A DNA stretch of 64,000 nt, taken from the NCBI RefSeq assembly GCF_038396675.1, contig NC_088928.1:16227501-16291500 (forward strand), in the 5' to 3' direction. The notes under the pieces were generated by a model that searched no databases, was not told where the DNA came from, and saw nothing but the letters and a program-made list of their open reading frames with translations. A program made the translations under genes and the position numbers. This document shows, in pieces, positions 15,672 through 50,715 of this stretch (the first letter of the stretch is position 1; each line of letters begins with the position of its first letter). This DNA comes from Hydra vulgaris (Eukaryota; Cnidaria; Hydrozoa; Anthoathecata; Hydridae).

Positions 15672-16274
15672 ATTGTCGTTCACATACATATCACCACTAA
15701 TGTCGTTCACATACATATGTTATATGTATAATCGCTTAATCATTACATGTGCCTTAAAAACATTCTTCCGTGGTTTTAGGTTGTCTCAAATGCACCTAAC
15801 TATGAAAAAAACTTTTTTTTTTAATTAAATTTTTGTTAATGTTGATAAGTTTAAAAAACATCTTAATGTAAAATAAACAAAAAGTAAAGATTAAAATATT
15901 GTGATCTTATTTAAAATATCGAAAGAAAACACTTTATCTTCCATTTTAAAATTTTTTACATAAAACTTTAAAATTGGAAAAAAAATTAAGACAATCTTAA
16001 GGTTGCTCCTAATCCAAAATTTAATTTTTATGTGTCTAGAAAAGTACTTTTGTTTTTTGTAAATATTTTGTTTTTTGAAAATAAAATTTAGTAAAAAAAA
16101 AAAAAACTATGAGTCCCAAAATACAAGTTGGGCATCTGACCACGTGTTCATAAAAAGTTTGAAAAATACACATTTTTGAATTTAAAATATGTTTGTTTAA
16201 TAAGTACCCTAGGTAAAAAAAAAAAAAAATCGGGAAATAAGAAATTATTTAAATTCATGATTACTAAAATATAC

Positions 16275-16589
16275 CGTTTGGAATGCAATTAAATGACCCT
16301 AATCTATTGACACAAACGCTTCCAGAATAACATATCTGTTTTCGTTCGATGCATTCATTGTAGTCGTTGATTACTTGAATTGGCCCTCCGATATTAGAAG
16401 CTATTTTTTGTATTTGTAGCAAATCTTCATCTGTGATAATCTTGTAAAATACCACTTGAATAATGTTTCCAGGGTCTATGCGAAGGGCATTGGCAATATT
16501 ATAATTGGATAGTTGACTTATTAATTCTGCTAGTACACGAGGAACATCATTAGGAGTTGAGACATATTGAATTTTGTATGAATAATCGT
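16275..16589 (-). CDS. Exon: unknown domain plus partial Ca-binding-type EGF
   Basis: The minus strand shows acceptor ATTTTTCTTAG, 315 nt open in one frame, then a possible phase-1 donor G|GTATAT. It joins in phase with the upstream EGF exon (T|AC restores a Tyr codon). The first ~70 residues form a mixed alpha/beta-looking stretch (for example RIDPGNIIQVVFYKII) that I do not recognise. The last ~30 begin DYNEC and continue with two cysteines, then CVNRLGSFNC: the calcium-binding EGF pattern D-x-N-E-C...C-x-N-x-x-GSF-x-C with four of six cysteines. If the donor is not used, the frame ends at a TAG at 16264-16266 (residues GIF), giving a short secreted product instead. The last two cysteines are absent from the transmembrane exon at 8842-8959, so either the domain is truncated or an intermediate exon was missed. 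Confidence 0.75.
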
Positions 16590-16680
16590 CTAAGAAAAAT
16601 TTTATTGTTCTTAATTAAAACATTTAGCGTTTTATTTTTAATTTTAATTTTTTTAATATAAATAAATTATAAATACTTAC

Positions 16681-23776: not shown

Positions 23777-25015
<1,239 letters not shown>

Positions 25016-25179
25016 TTTCGGAAAAAACGAGTGCAACAAAATAATGCTAATTTAGTTTCTTTATATAAAAGTGCTGCATTTTTTCAATTTAAAGAAATAA
25101 CTATGTATTTGTTTAGAGACAAAGTTCTTCAAGTTTTATTCATCACAAAGTTCATTATTTGAACACCAAAATTAATAAA

Positions 25180-25230
25180 TTAATCAAAAGTATTAGAAAA
25201 AGTTGATTTTCTTCTAATACTTTTGATTAA
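25180..25230. repeat. Perfect 19-bp hairpin after the transposase frame
   Basis: TTAATCAAAAGTATTAGAA and its exact reverse complement are separated by 13 bp. It lies between the end of the transposase frame and the left end of the element. Confidence 0.85.
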
Positions 25231-25278
25231 CAAAACAAGTGCATTTCGACAAAATGTTGACCAAGCTGTATTTCGCTA

Positions 25279-25998
25279 TCAATATTTTGTGACGAATCCT
25301 TTGTTGTCGATCACAGCCTTGCATCTTCGAGGCATAGATTCGATCAGGTGATCAATGAAACTTTGTGGAATTGCTGCCTAGGCCTTTTGGATTTGTTCAA
25401 ACAGTTGATCCTTATTACGAACACCTTCACGATTAATTCTGCAGTTGACAATCTCCCACAGGTTCTCGATAGGGTTGAGATCCGGAGATTGAGGCGGCCA
25501 AACCATCACCTATAGGTGGTTGTCTTGAAACCATTGCTTGATTACTTTTGCAGTGTGTTTCGGATCGTTGTCTTGCTGAAAAACCCATTTTATTGGCATA
25601 TTCCATTCAGCATGAGGTAGCATAACATCTTTCAGGATATTTTTATTCATGAAACGGTCCATTATTCCAACAGCACGTTGTCTGATTGTTCGGTCCGATA
25701 CAGGCAGCTCTAATTGCTTTTGTATCTCGACTGATGATATCCAGGAATCCTTCTTGATGGATCTGACGATCATAGAATCCTCTCTAGAAGTGGTGGAACG
25801 CGGTCTTCCACCTTTGTTATCTGCTGCCAACTTCCCCGTAGAACGATATTTGGAACATAGTCTTGATACGGTCCAATTTTTCACGCGATGTTTATCACAA
25901 ATACTTTTTTGTGACATTCCACTTTCGTAATCGCCAATAATTTTCTTTCTTAGTTCCAATCCAAGACTGTCGGGAGCCATTTTTGCACTTGAAGTCAT
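25279..25998 (-). pseudogene. Tc1 transposase with deleted catalytic core
   Basis: The first ~110 codons after the ATG at 25996-25998 form the paired-like bipartite helix-turn-helix DNA-binding region (LRKKIIGDYESGMSQKSIC, then GGRPRSTTSRED and SSVEIQKQLELPVSDRTIRQ). The frame then jumps directly to DRFMNKNIL...WVFQQDNDPKHTAK, skipping ~130 residues that should hold the first catalytic Asp. A TAG at 25510-25512 interrupts before PPQSPDLNPIENLWE, which contains the catalytic Glu. The second Asp to Glu spacing is 34, so this is a DD34E Tc1. The frame ends FVTKY at about 25279. It cannot transpose itself, but the DNA-binding part is intact and open for 162 codons. Confidence 0.87.
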
Positions 25999-26264
25999 AA
26001 AAATAATAAAAATAAATAATCACGCTTCTTAAGGCTTACCGTGTTGCATTTACCTTGTGATGATACAATAATGCTCTGTGAACACAACGTCTTGGTTGGA
26101 TGTGGACTGTATTGATGTAATGAAACACTTGTTGTATTTCACTTCTTGTATTGATGTTCTTCGATAAAACACTTTGATAAAACTCACTTCGATAAACTGT
26201 CTTGATAAAACTGACTAATTGACTTCCATATACTGACTCAATTACATGTCGATATACATGTCTC

Positions 26265-26434
26265 TTATATAATAAAAGGAACCTGTGTGAACCTGTTCTG
26301 GAAGATTCTAGATGCTTCTTTTCGATGCTTCTGGAAGCTTTTGGATGCTTCTGAATGTTTCTGGATATTTCTGGATGCTACTGGATGCTTCTTCTGGAAA
26401 CTTCTGGAAGCTTCTGCATGCTTCTGGAAACTTC
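26265..26434 (-). promoter_or_regulatory. Heat-shock-element cluster and TATA box
   Basis: Heat shock factor binds alternating nGAAn pentamers. Here TTCtgGAAacTTCtgGAAgcTTC at 26392-26414 gives five alternating units, TTCtgGAAgaTTC at 26296-26308 and TTCtgGAAacTTC at 26422-26434 give three each, and TTCtgGAA at 26329-26336 gives two. On the minus strand these lie just upstream of TATATAA (26265-26271), about 25 bp from the nearest element. The transposase ATG is a further ~267 nt downstream. The order, spacing and strand are those of an hsp-type promoter. The cluster may have grown from a 10-12-bp tandem repeat (GCTTCTGGAA). Confidence 0.65.
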
Positions 26435-26733
26435 TGGATACTTCCTTTAATTATTAAAAAACTTCCGTGACGTTGACACGGACCAGACTTAAGAAAATGA
26501 AACAAACCAAAAAAGTTGCACTTGTTTTTTTCCGATACAAAATGGCACTTGACAACGAAACTCTGCCTGTGCGCTGTCACCTGTCAGCTGATTGCTCATG
26601 TCATGGCATGCTATGAATCCAGACTCCTGAACTGTTTGCTGTGGTAGTATAGTTCGTTTCGTTTTTAAGACATGTAAAATTAGGAACACTTTTTAGCATT
26701 GTTCGATGTTGGTTGCAAATGTTTTGTCCAATA

Positions 26734-26736
<3 letters not shown>

Positions 26737-26806
<70 letters not shown>

Positions 26807-26821
26807 TATAGATATATATAT
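26737..26821. repeat. (TA)n microsatellite between two transposons
   Basis: About 70 bp of TA, then GATATAGATATATATAT. That variant tail is mirrored at the other end of the next element (29620-29640). Confidence 0.95.
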
Positions 26822-27289
26822 CACACTAGTCCGAAATGGCTCAAAACTTGAACTTGAGTTACCGAAGAAACCCTATGGGGGATTAAAGTACACATGTTCC
26901 TATTTCAAAAAGTGAAAAAATTGAAATCAAACTATTTTGTCCGAGAAAGAATATTGATTTTGAATTTTTAACATTTTATGAAGAAATGCCGGTTGACATA
27001 ATTATTGAAAAAAATGATTTTGACTCATTCTAAACTGGAAACACCATCCAAATGTTTCTATATGTAGCATATTTGTGTGCAGGAACATTCCGTTATTATG
27101 TGTATGGGTTTAAAAAAACATTAGTGTACTAAGTGGTAGTTTTAGGAATTTTGTTTGAATATAACAAAGCATAGTTTTCATAATATTGAGTCTTTTTTAT
27201 CACAATTAAGTTATAATGATAAACACTAAACAATTTTAATTCGCATTTATTCCTCCAAACAAATAAAAATGACATTGATTATTTCTTTT

Positions 27290-28976: not shown

Positions 28977-29619
28977 TTTTAATGAAATAGCTTGATTTGA
29001 CACAATTCATATAGCAAAGCAACTAAGGGTCAATGTCTTTTCCCGAAAAAAGAGAAAAAAACGTTTTGCCAGGTTGCCACCCTTATTATGACATTATGCA
29101 AACTACCAATTTAGCATTTTTAGGTTAATTCAAAAAGCATTATTTCTGTCCTGTTATAATTACTTACACTTTGAACTTTTAAATGAGGTGTTTAGAAATA
29201 TACATTGAAAATTTAGGATCTTTAAATATTAACACTCTTACACTAGAATTTTTTGGAATGAGTGAAAATCTTAATAAAAAGAAAGTTTTTATAAACTTTT
29301 AAACACAATAACATAAAAGTTAATTTCCAAACACTAAAATATGCTGCATATAGAAATATTTGAATGGTATTTCCAGTTTAGAATGAGTCAAAATTATTTT
29401 TTTCAATAATTATGTCAACCGGCATTTCTTTATAAAATGTTAAAAATTCAAAATCAATTTTCTTTTTCAGTTCCTATTTCAAGTTCCTAGTTCCTATTTC
29501 AAAAAGTGCAAAAATTTCAATTTTTGCACTTTTTGAAATAGGAACATGTGTACTTTAATCCCCCAAAGGGTTTCTTCGGAAACTCAAGTTCAAGTTTTGA
29601 GCCATTTCGGACTAGTGTG

Positions 29620-29790
<171 letters not shown>

Positions 29791-34800: not shown

Positions 34801-36414
<1,614 letters not shown>

Positions 36415-39779: not shown

Positions 39780-40378
39780 ATATTTTCAAGCATTGCTTAA
39801 GCAACTTGAAACCAACCTAAAATTGAAGCTCCCTGCATTAATATGTATTTAACAGCAGCTGGTGGCTTTCTAGATTCTAGATATAGATCTTTTTTGCTAG
39901 TTTGTTTAATACCACTTTAATGACTTCGTTGATGCTATTCATACTCACATTCATTGAAAGATATCTACTACTTTAAAAGTTAATATATCTTTATCATCTA
40001 ACAAATAAACCATTATTTCTTATCAGAACCTCTTGTAACTCTTTCGAGTAAAAGCCAATAAACATTTCTAATGCCTTCGTTTCCTGCACTCCACTTTCTA
40101 ATAACTTTTAAACAATTGAGTAAATCACATATCAGAAGCATTTTTTGAGCATACAAAATCTTTATTTATTTACAAGTTCTTGGTTCTCTTCTTTTAAAAC
40201 ATTTGTCTTACTACATAATGATGCAACTTCTTCTTTTTTTAAAAGATTTTCTATTGTTTTCATGAATATAGTTGTTTTTATTTTGAAAAACAAATTTTTA
40301 AATTACTTGCTTTTCAACTTTAGTTTCTCTTTTTTTGATTCAGAAATTTTTGTCTGAATCTTCAAGAATTAAATTAAT

Positions 40379-45776: not shown

Positions 45777-47090
45777 GGTCGTTAGGAAAGTTCATAGAAC
45801 TTCATCTGTAAAGATACAATGAGACAGGAAATAGTTAAATATTTATATATCATTTTAAACTGTGTTTAATTATGAAAATTTTAAGTACTTGTTGAAATAT
45901 TTTGAATGTTTATTAAAAAAGTTATTTAAATTTTATTATATACGTTAAAAAAAAATTTAAAAATGGAAAAATTTGAATATCGAGCATATATTAAAACCCG
46001 TGCTCTACTTGGAGTTTCAGCACAAGCCATATCCGATGAGTTGGTTTTAGTTCATGGTAACCAAGCTCCAAAATATAGTATAGTCGCCAAGTGGGCTACT
46101 TTATTTAAAGATGGTAGAGAGAGTCTCGAAGATGATCCTCGCTCAGGGCACCCTCGAACCACGTATACAGCTAAGAATATTGAACGTGTACGAGCCATGA
46201 TTGAAGAAAATCCGCATGCAACACATGATATAATTGAAGCCCTAACATCGATTAATCGTTTTACAATCAACGAAATCATTCACAACTCACTTAAAAAAAG
46301 AAAACTAACATCACGTTGGATACCCCACGAGTTAACCGATCAAAATCGCAAGAATAGAGTTGAGGCATGTAAGTAAAATTTAGCCCTTTTCAGAAACGGC
46401 CCATGGAGACTATGTGATATTATTACAGGGGATGAGTTGTGGTTTTATTTGAGACAAGTTAGACACAAATCGGCTAATGCTAGTTGGGTCGGTGAAGGTG
46501 AAAGTCCAAGAACTATAGTAAGATGCGACAGGTTTCAGCCGAAAAACATGCTTTACATCTTCTTCAAAACAACAGGTGTTGTTCATTTGGGTTATGTTGA
46601 AAAGGGAGACACCATTGCTAGCGAATATTATATAAAAAATTGTTTGAAACCTCTTATATGCGAAATAAATAAGCAAAGACCTAAAACAGGCAACTCAAAC
46701 TCAAACTCAAAATTTCAAATTTCTCCATGATAACGCTCGACCCCATGTGACTGAAACCGTCACAAATTGTCTAAACCAAGCTAGAATTACAATAACTTGC
46801 CACCCACCATACTTACCAGACTTAGCTCCATCCGAATATTGGCTATTCGACTTGATAAAAAAAATCTTGATGACGATACAGACGTCGAAAGTCAAAAAAC
46901 TCGCATAACGAAGCTACTTCAAAGAATACCCAAAGAAGAGTATAAAAAAACGTTTGACAAATGGCTTGAAAGGATGCAACCTTGTATAGATAACGATGGA
47001 CATTATTTTGAACATTTGATAAAATAAAATTTAAAAAAACTCTTCCTTTTTATTTTTAATAGGGGAGTTCTACGAACTTTCCTAACGACC
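45777..47090 (+). mobile_element. mariner transposon inserted in the gypsy element
   Basis: Ends GGTCGTTAGGAAAGTTCATA (left) and GGTCGTTAGGAAAGTTCGTA (right, inverted), flanked by TA at 45775-45776 and 47091-47092. Length 1314 bp is typical of mariner. Removing it rejoins the gypsy integrase frame across the single TA. Confidence 0.92.
45963..47027 (+). pseudogene. mariner transposase with Glu at the third catalytic position
   Basis: Begins MEKFEYRAYIKTRALLGVSA, the mariner helix-turn-helix region, followed by GRESLEDDPRSGHPRT. Catalytic residues: Asp in ITGDELWF (46431-46433), Asp in LHDNARPH (46729-46731) and, 34 residues on, APSEYWLF where mariners normally have APSDYHLF. The codon at 46834-46836 is GAA, giving DD34E instead of DD34D. 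Defects: a TAA at 46374-46376, a shift near 46710 within repeated ACTCAA units and another near 46860 in an A-run. The C-terminus ends FEHLIK. The low number of defects suggests a fairly recent loss. Confidence 0.85.
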
Positions 47091-47092
47091 TA

Positions 47093-47610
47093 AGTATTTC
47101 TTTCTGTATAACTTATCATTTTCTTTTCTCTTCTTGGCTTGATCAATAATATTTGTATCAACCCTTGTCTGAAATGAGGGTATTGTGAAACCTGTAAGGC
47201 AATTGAACATGAGTATAGATGATGGTATCCGAGTTGTGCAATGGGGAGTGGTACGGTAGGAGAACAGGAAGTTGTATAACTGCTTTTTCCGGTTTCTTCG
47301 TTCAATGTGTGCTGCTCGTAGTGTTTTCATCAGTGGTTTCATGATTGATTCGGCTTGTGAGTTAGCTTGCGGCCAAAGCGGCGTGAATTGTTTATGTTCA
47401 ATATTTAGTTTGTTAAAAAACATCTTTATTTTGAATGAAGTAAAAGGTTCCGATGGTGTTGGTGTGATTAATAGTTCGGCTGGTGGATTTTGTTTACCAA
47501 GTGCTTGACAAATTGCTCATTGTTTTATATGTTGTTCTACTTTAGTGTCTAGGCCGGGAAAGTAAACTTTCTGTCTAAGTAGTGCTTTGGTTTTCTCGAG
47601 TCCCATGTGG
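47093..47610 (-). pseudogene. Gypsy integrase, zinc region and core remnant
   Basis: From right to left: an integrase HHCC-like part with HNSH and a single recognisable ICQ, then a jump into FKIKMFFNKLNIEHKQFTP followed by WPQANSQAESIMKPLMKT. The last carries the catalytic Glu (codon at 47349-47351). The stretch that should contain the two catalytic Asp residues is missing, about 80 residues. The frame runs to KKYL at the mariner insertion point. Confidence 0.75.
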
Positions 47611-47613
47611 CTA

Positions 47614-48639
47614 TTATGCGCCAGTTGTATAACCGTAATCTCTAGTGATCGTGGAATGATAATTCGATTTTCTTTTTAGGATAATGTCTGATGTTTGATT
47701 TACTGTAAGTTCTTGGCTAATCTTACGGTAAGCAAGTAACTCTTTTTTAAACTTTCTTATTTCTGGAGGACAATTCGGATGTGTTAGTTTATACCAGGTA
47801 TTAGTGGCGACTAACTCTGTAAGTATTCGTAGAATAGGATCGGCTTTGGTTTCTATTTGAATATCTAGTAGTGAAAGGGCTTTAGGACATGCGTATTCAG
47901 CAGTAAAGTTGACATATTTTTCTAGCTTTTCGTTGTCACAAGGGTCTACCGGGTGTCGACTTGGATAATTAGATATATTGTTTTTTCCTTGGACGTAGTG
48001 TAAATCAAAAGAATATCCATGTAATCGTAAAGTCATACGCTCAATGCGCAGTGGTACTGTAGCATTTGATTCGTTTAAAACCTTCACAGCTTTGTAATTG
48101 CTGTACATTTTAAAAGGGTGTCCAAACAGGTATGTCCTGTTGTGTTCGCAGGCGTACACTATAGCTAAACATTCTCTTTCCAGCGTAGAGTTGCGTTGTT
48201 GTACAGGTGACAGCGCTTTTGAATTATAAGATATGAGTTTAAAGTCTTGTTTATTTGGCGTGTTTTGTACAATGATTGCCGATATGCCTACAAGACTTGC
48301 ATCGGTGAAGACTGTAGTTTCTTTATTGGGATCGAAGTACCCAACGCATGAGTCTGATGTCATAGCGTTTTTCAGTTTATCGAACGCACGCTGGCACTCA
48401 AGGTTCCAGTTCCATGATGAATCTTTATGAAGAAGGTTTCGTAAAGGATAAGTAATTGTACTGCAGTGTAGAATGAAACGCTTAAAATAGTTCATAAGCC
48501 CGAGAAAGCTTTGGAGAGCTTTAGTGTTTTCTGGTATAGGCCTGTTTTTGATATTATCAAGTTTTTCAGGATCTGGTTGCTTTCCTTCTTTTGAAAATAT
48601 AAATCCAAAAATTTTACTTTTTCTTTTCCAAATAAGCAT
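47614..48639 (-). pseudogene. Gypsy RT connection and RNase H domain
   Basis: Open for ~340 codons. It contains the RT thumb block (NTKALQSFLGLMNYFKRFI), then WNLECQRAFDKLKN and TVFTDASLVGISAIIVQ, the RNase H Asp motif (48301-48303), RECLAIVYACEHNRTYLFG with the RNase H Glu, and DLHYVQGKNNISNYPSRHP where the final Asp of the usual xADxLSR motif is replaced (NISNYPSR). The right edge overlaps the preceding RT frame, with a frameshift near 48610. Confidence 0.85.
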
Positions 48640-49558
48640 TTTTCAAAGTTTAGAGTTAAACCTCTCTGTTTGAATCTTTTTAATACTTTGTGTAATATTG
48701 AATCGTGTTGTTTTGCATTTAAAGCGAATACTAAAACATCGTCAGCAATATTAGGAGTTCCTTCTATATCTTTCAAAGCTTCTCGTAAAGCGTTTTGTAG
48801 TTCTTCCTGCGCAGAATTTACTCCAAAATTAAGTCTTGTGAAACGTTTAATTTGAGTTTCGGATTGAAAAGTAGTAATTGATCTCGATTCCGGCGCAAGT
48901 TTGAGCTGGTAAAATGCCTTCATTAAATCTAGTCTTTAAGTTTTATAATAACTTCATCTAGGGTTGAAGTCGGGAAACGCGTTCTTCCGATAGCTTTGTT
49001 AGCGGCTCGCACGTCTACGCAAATCCTTAGGTTACCGTCATTTTTTGGAACAATTACCATTGCACTTATCCAGGGTGTTGTTTCGTCCGTTACCGTTTCA
49101 ATTATTCCTTCTGCTTCAAGCTTTGTAAGCACATCTTTAACTTTTTCTCTAAGTGCAAAAGGAATTCTTCTTTCTTTTTGTGCGACTGGTGGTATACTTT
49201 CATTTATTTTCAACTTAGCTTGGTAGTTAGAAAGTTTTCCTATTTTCCCGCTAAAAACAGAATTTTTGTATGAGTTTATAAGTGGTTGTAATCGTTTTGG
49301 AACGTTTAGAAGTAGAACATTGTTTAATTTGCTAATGTTCCGCATGGGTTGGCAAGATTGTTGTTTACTGTCGCAATAATTATTTTGTATTGTTTTTTGT
49401 TTGTTTAAAAGTTTCTCATTGACGTCAGTATGTACTAGAGCTCTATTCAATTGCATTAAACCGAGTAATTTGGCGTCGTTTCCAGATAATAGATTGTTGT
49501 GGTGTGTTTTAATCGCGTGGAATTTGGACTGAAGGAATTTCGTATGACTTTCTATCAC
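48492..49558 (-). pseudogene. Gypsy reverse transcriptase
   Basis: Contains EAEGIIETVTDETTPWISAM and VVIVPK-type fingers (MVIVPKNDGNLRICVDVRAA), TRFPTSTLDEVI, MKAFYQLKLAPESR and the polymerase active site NIADDVLVFA (DD at 48738-48743). A one-base shift near 48926 lies between LKD and LDLMKAFYQL. Otherwise the RT domain is intact to FEKCLFG. This is standard Ty3/gypsy RT, and the closest subfamily cannot be named from inspection. Confidence 0.88.
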
Positions 49559-49599
49559 GGCATTGATTTGCCTTTCAATTTTAAGTTTTGGATTGTTAT

Positions 49600-49740
49600 C
49601 CCCGTAAGTAATAATCTGTGTTTTAGATTTATATAGGCGAAGCGGTCTTTGATAAAAGCTCCGGTATCTATTAAAACGGTTATTGGTATATTTTATATAT
49701 TAATCGTTACCTCGAAGTTTTCGACTGCTTCAGTATTTAT
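49600..49740 (-). pseudogene. Gypsy aspartic protease remnant
   Basis: The minus strand reads ITVLIDTGAFIKDRFA, with the catalytic DTGA at 49657-49668. An upstream stop (INI*NIP) and shifts on both sides separate it from gag and RT. Confidence 0.75.
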
Positions 49741-49825
49741 CTTATTAGCATTTACAGAATACAAGTCTCCTTGATTTAACTTTGCACGAGGATTTTCGGA
49801 TCATTGATATCTTTGTAAATTGTAT

Positions 49826-50560
49826 TTATTGGTTTCGCATAGATTTGTTCATTTCTTTGGTATTTCTCTCGATGGGTTGTTGTATTCTGTTCTTTTTGTT
49901 TCTTACTTTTACAGACTGTTGCAAAATGTCCAATTTTCCGCAGGAGTAGCATGTTTTCCCTAACGCTAAACATGCGTTAGTGTGCGGTAGTTCAGTTCCG
50001 CATCGATTACAAATTTTTTTCAGCGACTTATTTATAATCTCATTTGGTTCTTTACTGATTAGTGGTAAGTTTGTTTTCTTGTTTACTTCGCTTTGTTTAT
50101 TCGTTTCTTTCTCCAGTTCTTCTACTTGATTGTCCATCAGTTTGAATGTTTTTGCAGTAGTTAACAAATCTTGTAAATTTTTATTAGGATTTTGAAAACT
50201 GTATTTACGTAGTTTGGAAATGTTTGTACTAAGCTCAATTTGTTGTTTAATTTCTTTATCTTTATCGGCAAACTCGAATTTAAGAGCTTGTTCGTGTAAT
50301 CGAACGTAAAACTGCTGAGTGGTTTCATCTGTACGTTGAGCCATTTTATGGAAGATAAAAATTTCATAGCTCGGGTTTACTTGGGGTTTGAAGTATTCCT
50401 TAAAAGCTTCGACAGCTTGCTGGTATGTGATCAGCGTATCTTGCGGTATAATGTTTTCATAAATTTCGTAAGTTTTATCTCCAATTAAAGTAAGAAGCAA
50501 CGAAAGTTTTTGCTTATCATCTGTAATTATAAGTGAATCGCAAAGTAACTCGAATCGTTT
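49826..50560 (-). pseudogene. Gypsy gag with zinc knuckles
   Basis: Capsid-like helices (LLLTLIGDKTYEIYENI, then EAFKEYFKPQVNPSYEIFIF and AQRTDETTQQFYVRLHEQA) followed by CNRCGTELPHTNAC and CYSCGK...GHFATVC. These are two CCHC-type knuckles, the second broken by a frameshift near 49935. The retained order capsid then knuckle is that of retrotransposon Gag. The N-terminus begins upstream of 50500 in the same frame without a clear ATG. Confidence 0.78.
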
Positions 50561-50715
50561 AATGTAGCGTTTCCAGCTAGAAAATAACTTAGTTGCAACA
50601 TGAAAATGGTGGAAAGTTTGGTAGATTAAGGTTTTTTATAAGTATGTTAAATGTAATGATTATTTAAATCCTCTTTTTTTTTTTTTTTTTTTTTACAAAT
50701 TAGTCGCCAATTTTA

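Follow-up and report, generated by a model that had tools for sequence, protein, structure and literature searches.

When a copy of a Tc1-type transposon in Hydra vulgaris was found to have a cluster of heat-shock elements (HSEs) in front of its transposase frame, the question arose whether the transposon carries a stress-inducible promoter of its own. We analysed the whole 64,000-nucleotide stretch around this copy (contig NC_088928.1, positions 16,227,501 to 16,291,500; hereafter the window) and searched the host genome (911.5 Mb, 15 contigs) with the element as the query. The features of the window copy are listed in Table 1.

Table 1. Features of the transposon copy, in positions of the window.
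Feature	Position	Strand	Basis or remark
Whole Tc1/Sleeping Beauty-type element copy	25015..26736	-	Boundaries shared with other genomic copies; TA-flanked, within long TA repeats
5' outer direct repeat of the IR/DR terminus (GGACAAAACATTTGCAAC)	26712..26729	-	Sequence and family layout
5' inner direct repeat, mutated copy	26515..26533	-	Sequence and family layout
Imperfect 10-bp tandem array making up the HSE block	26296..26444	-	Array length differs among copies, mostly by multiples of 10 bp
HSE 1, three perfect alternating pentamers (AGAAGTTTCCAGAAG)	26421..26435	-	Pentamer scan and family majority
HSE 2, five perfect alternating pentamers	26391..26415	-	Pentamer scan and family majority
HSE 3, near-perfect in this copy (one mismatch) and perfect in the family majority	26328..26342	-	
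HSE 4, proximal, three perfect pentamers (AGAATCTTCCAGAAC)	26295..26309	-	Pentamer scan
TATA box TATATAAG	26264..26271	-	23 nt below the proximal HSE
Initiator-like motif ATTGAGTCAGT (family: ATTCAGTCAGT)	26232..26242	-	Sequence
Putative 5' leader	25999..26238	-	Ends at the transposase ATG
First open piece of the transposase frame (162 codons), with the HTH region followed by the catalytic domain without its deleted first part; in-frame stop at its end	25510..25998	-	
Deletion point, about 300 bp of the family transposase gene absent	25668..25669	-	In many other copies the matched parts are separated by about 300 bp more
Next transposase piece: C-terminal part of DDE_3 with the catalytic Glu (NPIENLW), between two in-frame stops	25378..25509	-	
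3' inner direct repeat, mutated	25228..25245	+	Sequence and family layout
3' outer direct repeat	25020..25037	+	Sequence and family layout

We scanned for perfect runs of at least three alternating nGAAn/nTTCn pentamers and compared the block at 26280-26450 with dinucleotide-preserving shuffles of itself. Three perfect runs were found in the block against a shuffle mean of 0.006, and none of the 1000 shuffles reached three. When up to one mismatch was allowed, the block gave 12 overlapping three-pentamer sites, whereas the shuffles averaged 0.155. Elsewhere in the window we observed one perfect run, at 40355. A chance origin of the block is ruled out by these shuffles and by the genome-wide reversed-pattern controls given below. 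The original prediction had counted four HSE blocks, and three of them are perfect, including the one with five pentamers, whereas the remaining one is near-perfect in this copy and perfect in the family majority. It had also placed a TATA box below the HSEs and then a leader running to the ATG, all on the minus strand, and this arrangement holds (TATA at 26271-26264, ATG at 25998). One correction concerns the HSEs of this copy, which sit within an imperfect 10-bp tandem array. The locus has at least three contiguous alternating pentamer units above a core promoter, as a heat-shock promoter should. The predicted transcription start, at about 26238, lies 33 nt downstream of the first T in the TATA box. 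A small intron may lie between a GT in the leader, at 26053, and an AG at 25988; alternatively, this AG may serve as a splice acceptor.

From the 5' end, on the minus strand, the element consists of a terminal repeat, the HSE block, the TATA box, the initiator-like motif, the leader and the transposase ATG. Its termini had been predicted at 25015 and 26736. Other copies confirmed the end at 26736 (CAGTATTGG... adjoining TA), which is family-like as a 5' end, while the 3' end at 25015 proved to be a slightly damaged form of the family end CAGTATCGG.... As seen in the translations, the same short sequence occurs beside a TA array at 26800-26930 and, in the opposite orientation, at 29517-29640; it probably marks where another repeat ends. 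Neither an Rfam scan nor a tRNA scan of the 64-kb window gave any match.

To place this copy in its family, we aligned the best 40 of 2,119 first-look candidates, the window copy among them. No copy was dropped, several are truncated, and the near-identical pairs L027/L031 and L039/L045 are included. All 40 copies, which are the best matches to an HSE-bearing query and not a random sample, have perfect HSEs above the TATA box (two in 10, three in 24 and four in 6). In 36 of the 40 the proximal HSE is intact, and its start then always lies 38 nt above that of the TATA box. Exact matches to the TATA box were found in 32 copies and to TTCAGT in 35. In the alignment majority all four HSEs are perfect, and TATA and initiator are ordinarily spaced. 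The array mostly measures 170, 180 or 190; six copies are off by one to a few bases, one measures 100 and two were unmeasurable. Outside the 260 nt above the TATA box there is no perfect HSE run in the 77.7 kb of element sequence from these copies. Terminal inverted repeats next to the TA target duplication (up to three mismatches) were recognised at the 5' end in 32/40, at the 3' end in 27/40 and at both ends in 22/40, the other ends being truncated or altered beyond the pattern. The IR/DR layout was measured in one copy, L016, where the direct repeats lie at 18 and 214 on the 5' side and at 11 and 207 on the 3' side, so that outer and inner repeats are spaced 196 bp apart at both ends.

Genome-wide, the proximal HSE with its flank (31 bases, up to three mismatches) matched 2,247 sites and the 5' terminus (29 bases, up to three mismatches) 2,300 sites, and both reversed-pattern controls gave 0. 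The two totals are nearly equal, and the check that they fall in the same places covers part of the sites: of 39 exact 5' ends listed on contig C1 below 38.85 Mb, 29 are near an exact proximal site or a five-pentamer HSE, with exact matches alone considered. The check proposed along with the original prediction was whether full-length copies share the HSE block, and the copies examined do. Since all 40 aligned copies, several truncated ones included, have the block, and 2,247 proximal sites compare with 2,300 5' termini, it is a property of the family and not a local insertion. An unrelated HSE block inserted into a single copy is ruled out by the same numbers.

The transposase frame that had been predicted behind the HSE promoter is present in the window copy, but it is broken. 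Because about 300 bp, including the region of the first catalytic Asp, are absent and two in-frame stops interrupt the rest, this copy is unable to make transposase. Its pieces gave HTH matches of the Tc1/Sleeping Beauty type below the Pfam cut-offs, a DDE_3 match above cut-off and a Sleeping Beauty match in PDB. Among the 40 aligned copies, 38 are without a full-length open transposase frame, and the frame of 341 codons is open in two, L023 and L044. In both, HTH_Tnp_Tc3_2 and DDE_3 were found above cut-off; HTH_SB was found in L044 only, below cut-off. L044 has D155, D245 and E280 with 34 residues between the second D and the E, which is the DD34E spacing, and its outer 5' end is absent. L023 has Gln at 280 instead of the catalytic Glu. 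When compared to the Sleeping Beauty catalytic domain (PDB 5cr4), the L044 protein matched with an E value of 7e-54. By its termini, its HTH and DDE_3 matches and this spacing, the element can be assigned to the Tc1/mariner superfamily as Sleeping Beauty-like (DD34E). One scan of viral contigs for relatives of the transposase found none.

We then compared conservation along the element. Mean column identity over the 40 copies is 93.5% in the HSE cores, 92.6% in the spacers, 97.7% in the 5' terminal repeat, 96.7% in the coding part and 97.8% in the leader from TATA to about 26016. No other part of the element is as poorly conserved as the HSE array, partly because the array varies in length. 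Substitutions in the aligned copies are spread over codon positions 1, 2 and 3 as 426, 412 and 415, and the copies have decayed like dead DNA, without sign of selection. A uniform neutral rate would leave the proximal HSE intact in 29.4 of the 40 copies, compared with the 36 observed (P 0.009); since the local substitution rate is lower in that stretch, we do not count this excess as proof. For TATA and the initiator there was no clear excess of intact copies over the uniform neutral rate. Taken over column identities, codon positions and the neutral-rate comparison, selection on the HSEs within the family gave no clear signal. The copies differ from the majority by 3.4% on average, which suggests recent transposition activity, and they seem to descend from a recent founder that already had the HSE block. 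Because of this shared founder, the presence of the block shows the founder's state and not selection on the HSEs, and conservation within so young a family cannot prove a function of the block.

Next, we looked at how much the family contributes to the HSEs of the genome. Perfect five-pentamer HSEs occur 2,342 times against 22 in the control. Eight loci (four distinct places) fetched from this list were all inside the Tc1 element. The first 100 five-pentamer matches listed, all on C1, represent 65 places, of which 45 were checked: 40 adjoin an exact end or proximal site, two more were aligned to the element and three belong to another repeat. Three-pentamer HSEs number 27,538 against 12,789 in the control, an excess of 14,749. 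Of the first 100 listed, which span 4.5 Mb of C1, 41 fall into six clusters; four of these were aligned to the Tc1 element, the fifth has an exact proximal site and the sixth was assigned by spelling alone. The other 59 correspond to 13.1 per Mb, against 14.0 in the control. The excess amounts to 6.6 HSEs per proximal site, a value similar to that of the sample (6.8 per cluster over the six clusters). As far as sampled, these counts point to a large young Tc1 family that supplies most of the genome's excess of strong HSEs.

The host encodes an HSF: the HSF_DNA-bind domain was found above cut-off at five places in the genome, four of them stop-free. For comparison with host heat-shock genes we took 14 stretches upstream of HSP70-type matches, several of which are inverted twins, so that not all are independent, and one of which (L053) starts within the gene. 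Eleven of the 14 have at least one HSE with up to one mismatch within about 800 nt, and two have a perfect three-pentamer HSE. The strong HSP70 matches (L049-L057, on C12, C10 and C11) are mostly paired, with mostly imperfect HSEs in their upstream regions. Three pairs are inverted (two on C12, one on C10) and have identical scores within the pair, and one pair on C11 is on the same strand. We also inspected six other Tc1-type copies, four out of 150 scored Sleeping Beauty-type matches and two from the window, and found no HSE run of three or more pentamers in the 600-945 bp upstream of them. The two in the window, at 23945-24637 (+) and 35182-36060 (-), belong to different families. The true promoter of the copy at 23945 may be missing from view because a TA array lies directly upstream.

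Three of the HSE-rich loci belong to another repeat (L087 at about 1454, L088 at about 1484 and L089 at about 1516; G000:C1:34643154, 38177484 and 38201816). They have 6, 6+4 and 7+3 perfect alternating pentamers, respectively, followed by a GTATAAAA box and a leader. This repeat is unlike Tc1 in sequence and older, its copies being 77-81% identical over the shared part, and its two downstream ORFs matched no Pfam family above cut-off. By this layout it is a second repeat with a putative heat-shock-type promoter.

Taken together, the HSE block probably serves a Tc1/Sleeping Beauty-type family as its native promoter, one that is present at about 2,250 sites of the genome and would be induced by stress via HSF. 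The HSEs, whose starts cluster 38-174 nt above the TATA box, would recruit host HSF upon heat or other stress, and RNA polymerase II would start near 26238. The transcript of intact copies would encode the 341-aa DD34E transposase, which would bind the IR/DR ends and move the element. The stress-inducible promoter put forward in the original prediction is to this extent partly supported, while HSF binding, the start site, induction and stress-timed transposition are what we infer from the sequence. The window copy cannot act because its transposase gene is broken; it is a dead descendant that at most offers HSEs to its neighbourhood.

The same array could have arisen without any role in transcription, as a 10-bp minisatellite (unit about CCAGAAGCTT) which grew by slippage within the element, the real promoter being elsewhere or constitutive. 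A 10-bp repeat of such a unit always reads as alternating GAA/TTC pentamers. The array is indeed an imperfect 10-bp tandem repeat with lengths mostly of 170/180/190, its HSE cores are hardly above the spacers in conservation, and it is the part of the element conserved least. However, it stops at the canonical distance above a TATA box and initiator, and the proximal HSE AGAATCTTCCAGAAC differs from the array unit and keeps a constant position whenever it is intact (36 of 40 copies). In addition, the layout recurs in the second repeat, which does not resemble the Tc1 element in sequence and spells its HSE cluster differently. Growth by slippage would also be compatible with HSF binding, and we regard a mere by-product as unlikely. 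Even less probable, in our view, is that an ancestral transposon took over its promoter from a heat-shock gene of the host. By eye, the stretch from the HSEs through TATA and initiator to the leader looks like a complete hsp promoter and 5' UTR, but the 14 upstream stretches, a comparison limited to the HSP70 type, are dissimilar to it (best match 17 nt, E 0.14). None of them has an HSE run longer than three pentamers and none resembles the transposon promoter. With the leader as a query, the best 40 of 202 candidates were the window and 39 matches at 96-98%, and since all 40 are this close, the search showed nothing more distant. Capture from a host HSP70 gene therefore finds no support, as there is no upstream similarity.

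It is possible, if somewhat doubtful, that the HSE block was functional formerly and is now mainly silenced. The lack of a full-length open transposase frame in 38 of the 40 aligned copies would fit this, as would the fact that, in the one 4.5-Mb stretch, HSEs belonging to none of the six clusters have a control-like density. On the other hand, the mean distance of 3.4% from the majority speaks for recent activity. Moreover, as far as the cited account of Hydra transposons goes, TcMar-Tc1 elements are expressed in a cell-type-specific manner; this is reported for the group and not specifically for the HSE family (PMC12220107).

If the native promoter is real, its consequences might reach beyond the transposon, and here we can offer only a tentative and rather unlikely extension. 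One Tc1 family would be the main bearer of strong HSEs in this genome (about 14,700 three-pentamer HSEs above control, 6.6 per promoter site). Heat shock would license its transposition and at the same time attract HSF to thousands of its copies, which would buffer or rewire the heat-shock response, and at least one other repeat would have come independently to the same layout.

Whether transposons respond to stress by way of promoters that they carry themselves has long been asked (McClintock's genome shock), and we know of few animal cases in which the promoter is defined. A cut-and-paste Tc1 of an experimentally tractable animal, with a textbook-like putative heat-shock promoter at about 2,250 sites, makes this directly testable. 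It would also show that the takeover of a genome's HSEs by one kind of transposon, as by the Helitrons of nematodes, has been repeated in another transposon class and another phylum. In Brassicaceae, ONSEN/COPIA78 and related heat-responsive COPIA elements have heat-factor sites in their own promoter which drive their activity; ONSEN/COPIA78 is a plant LTR retrotransposon, unlike the Hydra Tc1. Sleeping Beauty has a paired-type HTH, IR/DR ends and a TA target, and to our knowledge no comparable HSE array is present in its leader. The likeness of this fish Tc1-like element to the Hydra element lies in the sequence match of the DD34E transposase (PDB 5cr4). A full-text literature search found neither a Tc1/mariner element with an HSE promoter nor an HSE transposon in Hydra; the search was not exhaustive and does not prove absence. 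The closest case, as described in the cited part of Garrigues et al. 2019 (PMC6927752), is Helitron1_CE of Caenorhabditis, with HSEs clustered in the promoter of its own transposase gene, as in the Hydra Tc1. There are 14 of them in the promoter of F33H12.6, a gene reported to be up-regulated by heat shock, and almost two thirds of the genomic HSEs of C. elegans are within Helitrons (PMC6927752). The comparison with nematode Helitrons drawn in the original prediction was thus apt (PMC6927752). However, Helitron1_CE is a Rep-helicase Helitron of a nematode, whereas the Hydra element is a cut-and-paste DD34E Tc1 of a cnidarian, with a putative heat-shock promoter. The Cryptococcus LTR retrotransposons TCN3 and TCN12 are described, in the text cited, as having putative HSEs in their LTRs and moving more at 37 C (PMC12810828). 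Unlike the Hydra Tc1, they are fungal retrotransposons, with one or two putative HSEs each (PMC12810828). Tc1/mariner elements of C. elegans supply sites for LSL-1, LSY-2, EFL-1, LIN-15B and other transcription factors, a likeness to the Hydra Tc1, but there, in the portion cited, the HSEs are credited to Helitrons (PMC8896005). Transposon-borne HSE promoters are therefore known already from nematode Helitrons, and what appears to be new here is a Tc1 family with a putative HSE promoter.

The window also contains other decayed elements. At 45930-46730 (+) we recognised by eye broken mariner-like transposase frames, of which 45930-46373 gave an HTH_32 match below cut-off only. A decayed Gypsy-type retrotransposon occupies 47082-50635 (-): Pfam found RT RNase H in 47617-48642 and nothing in 48932-49699, and pieces resembling integrase and gag were seen by eye. 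The stretch at 16264-16614 (-) matches a calcium-binding EGF domain and is likely a host-gene exon.
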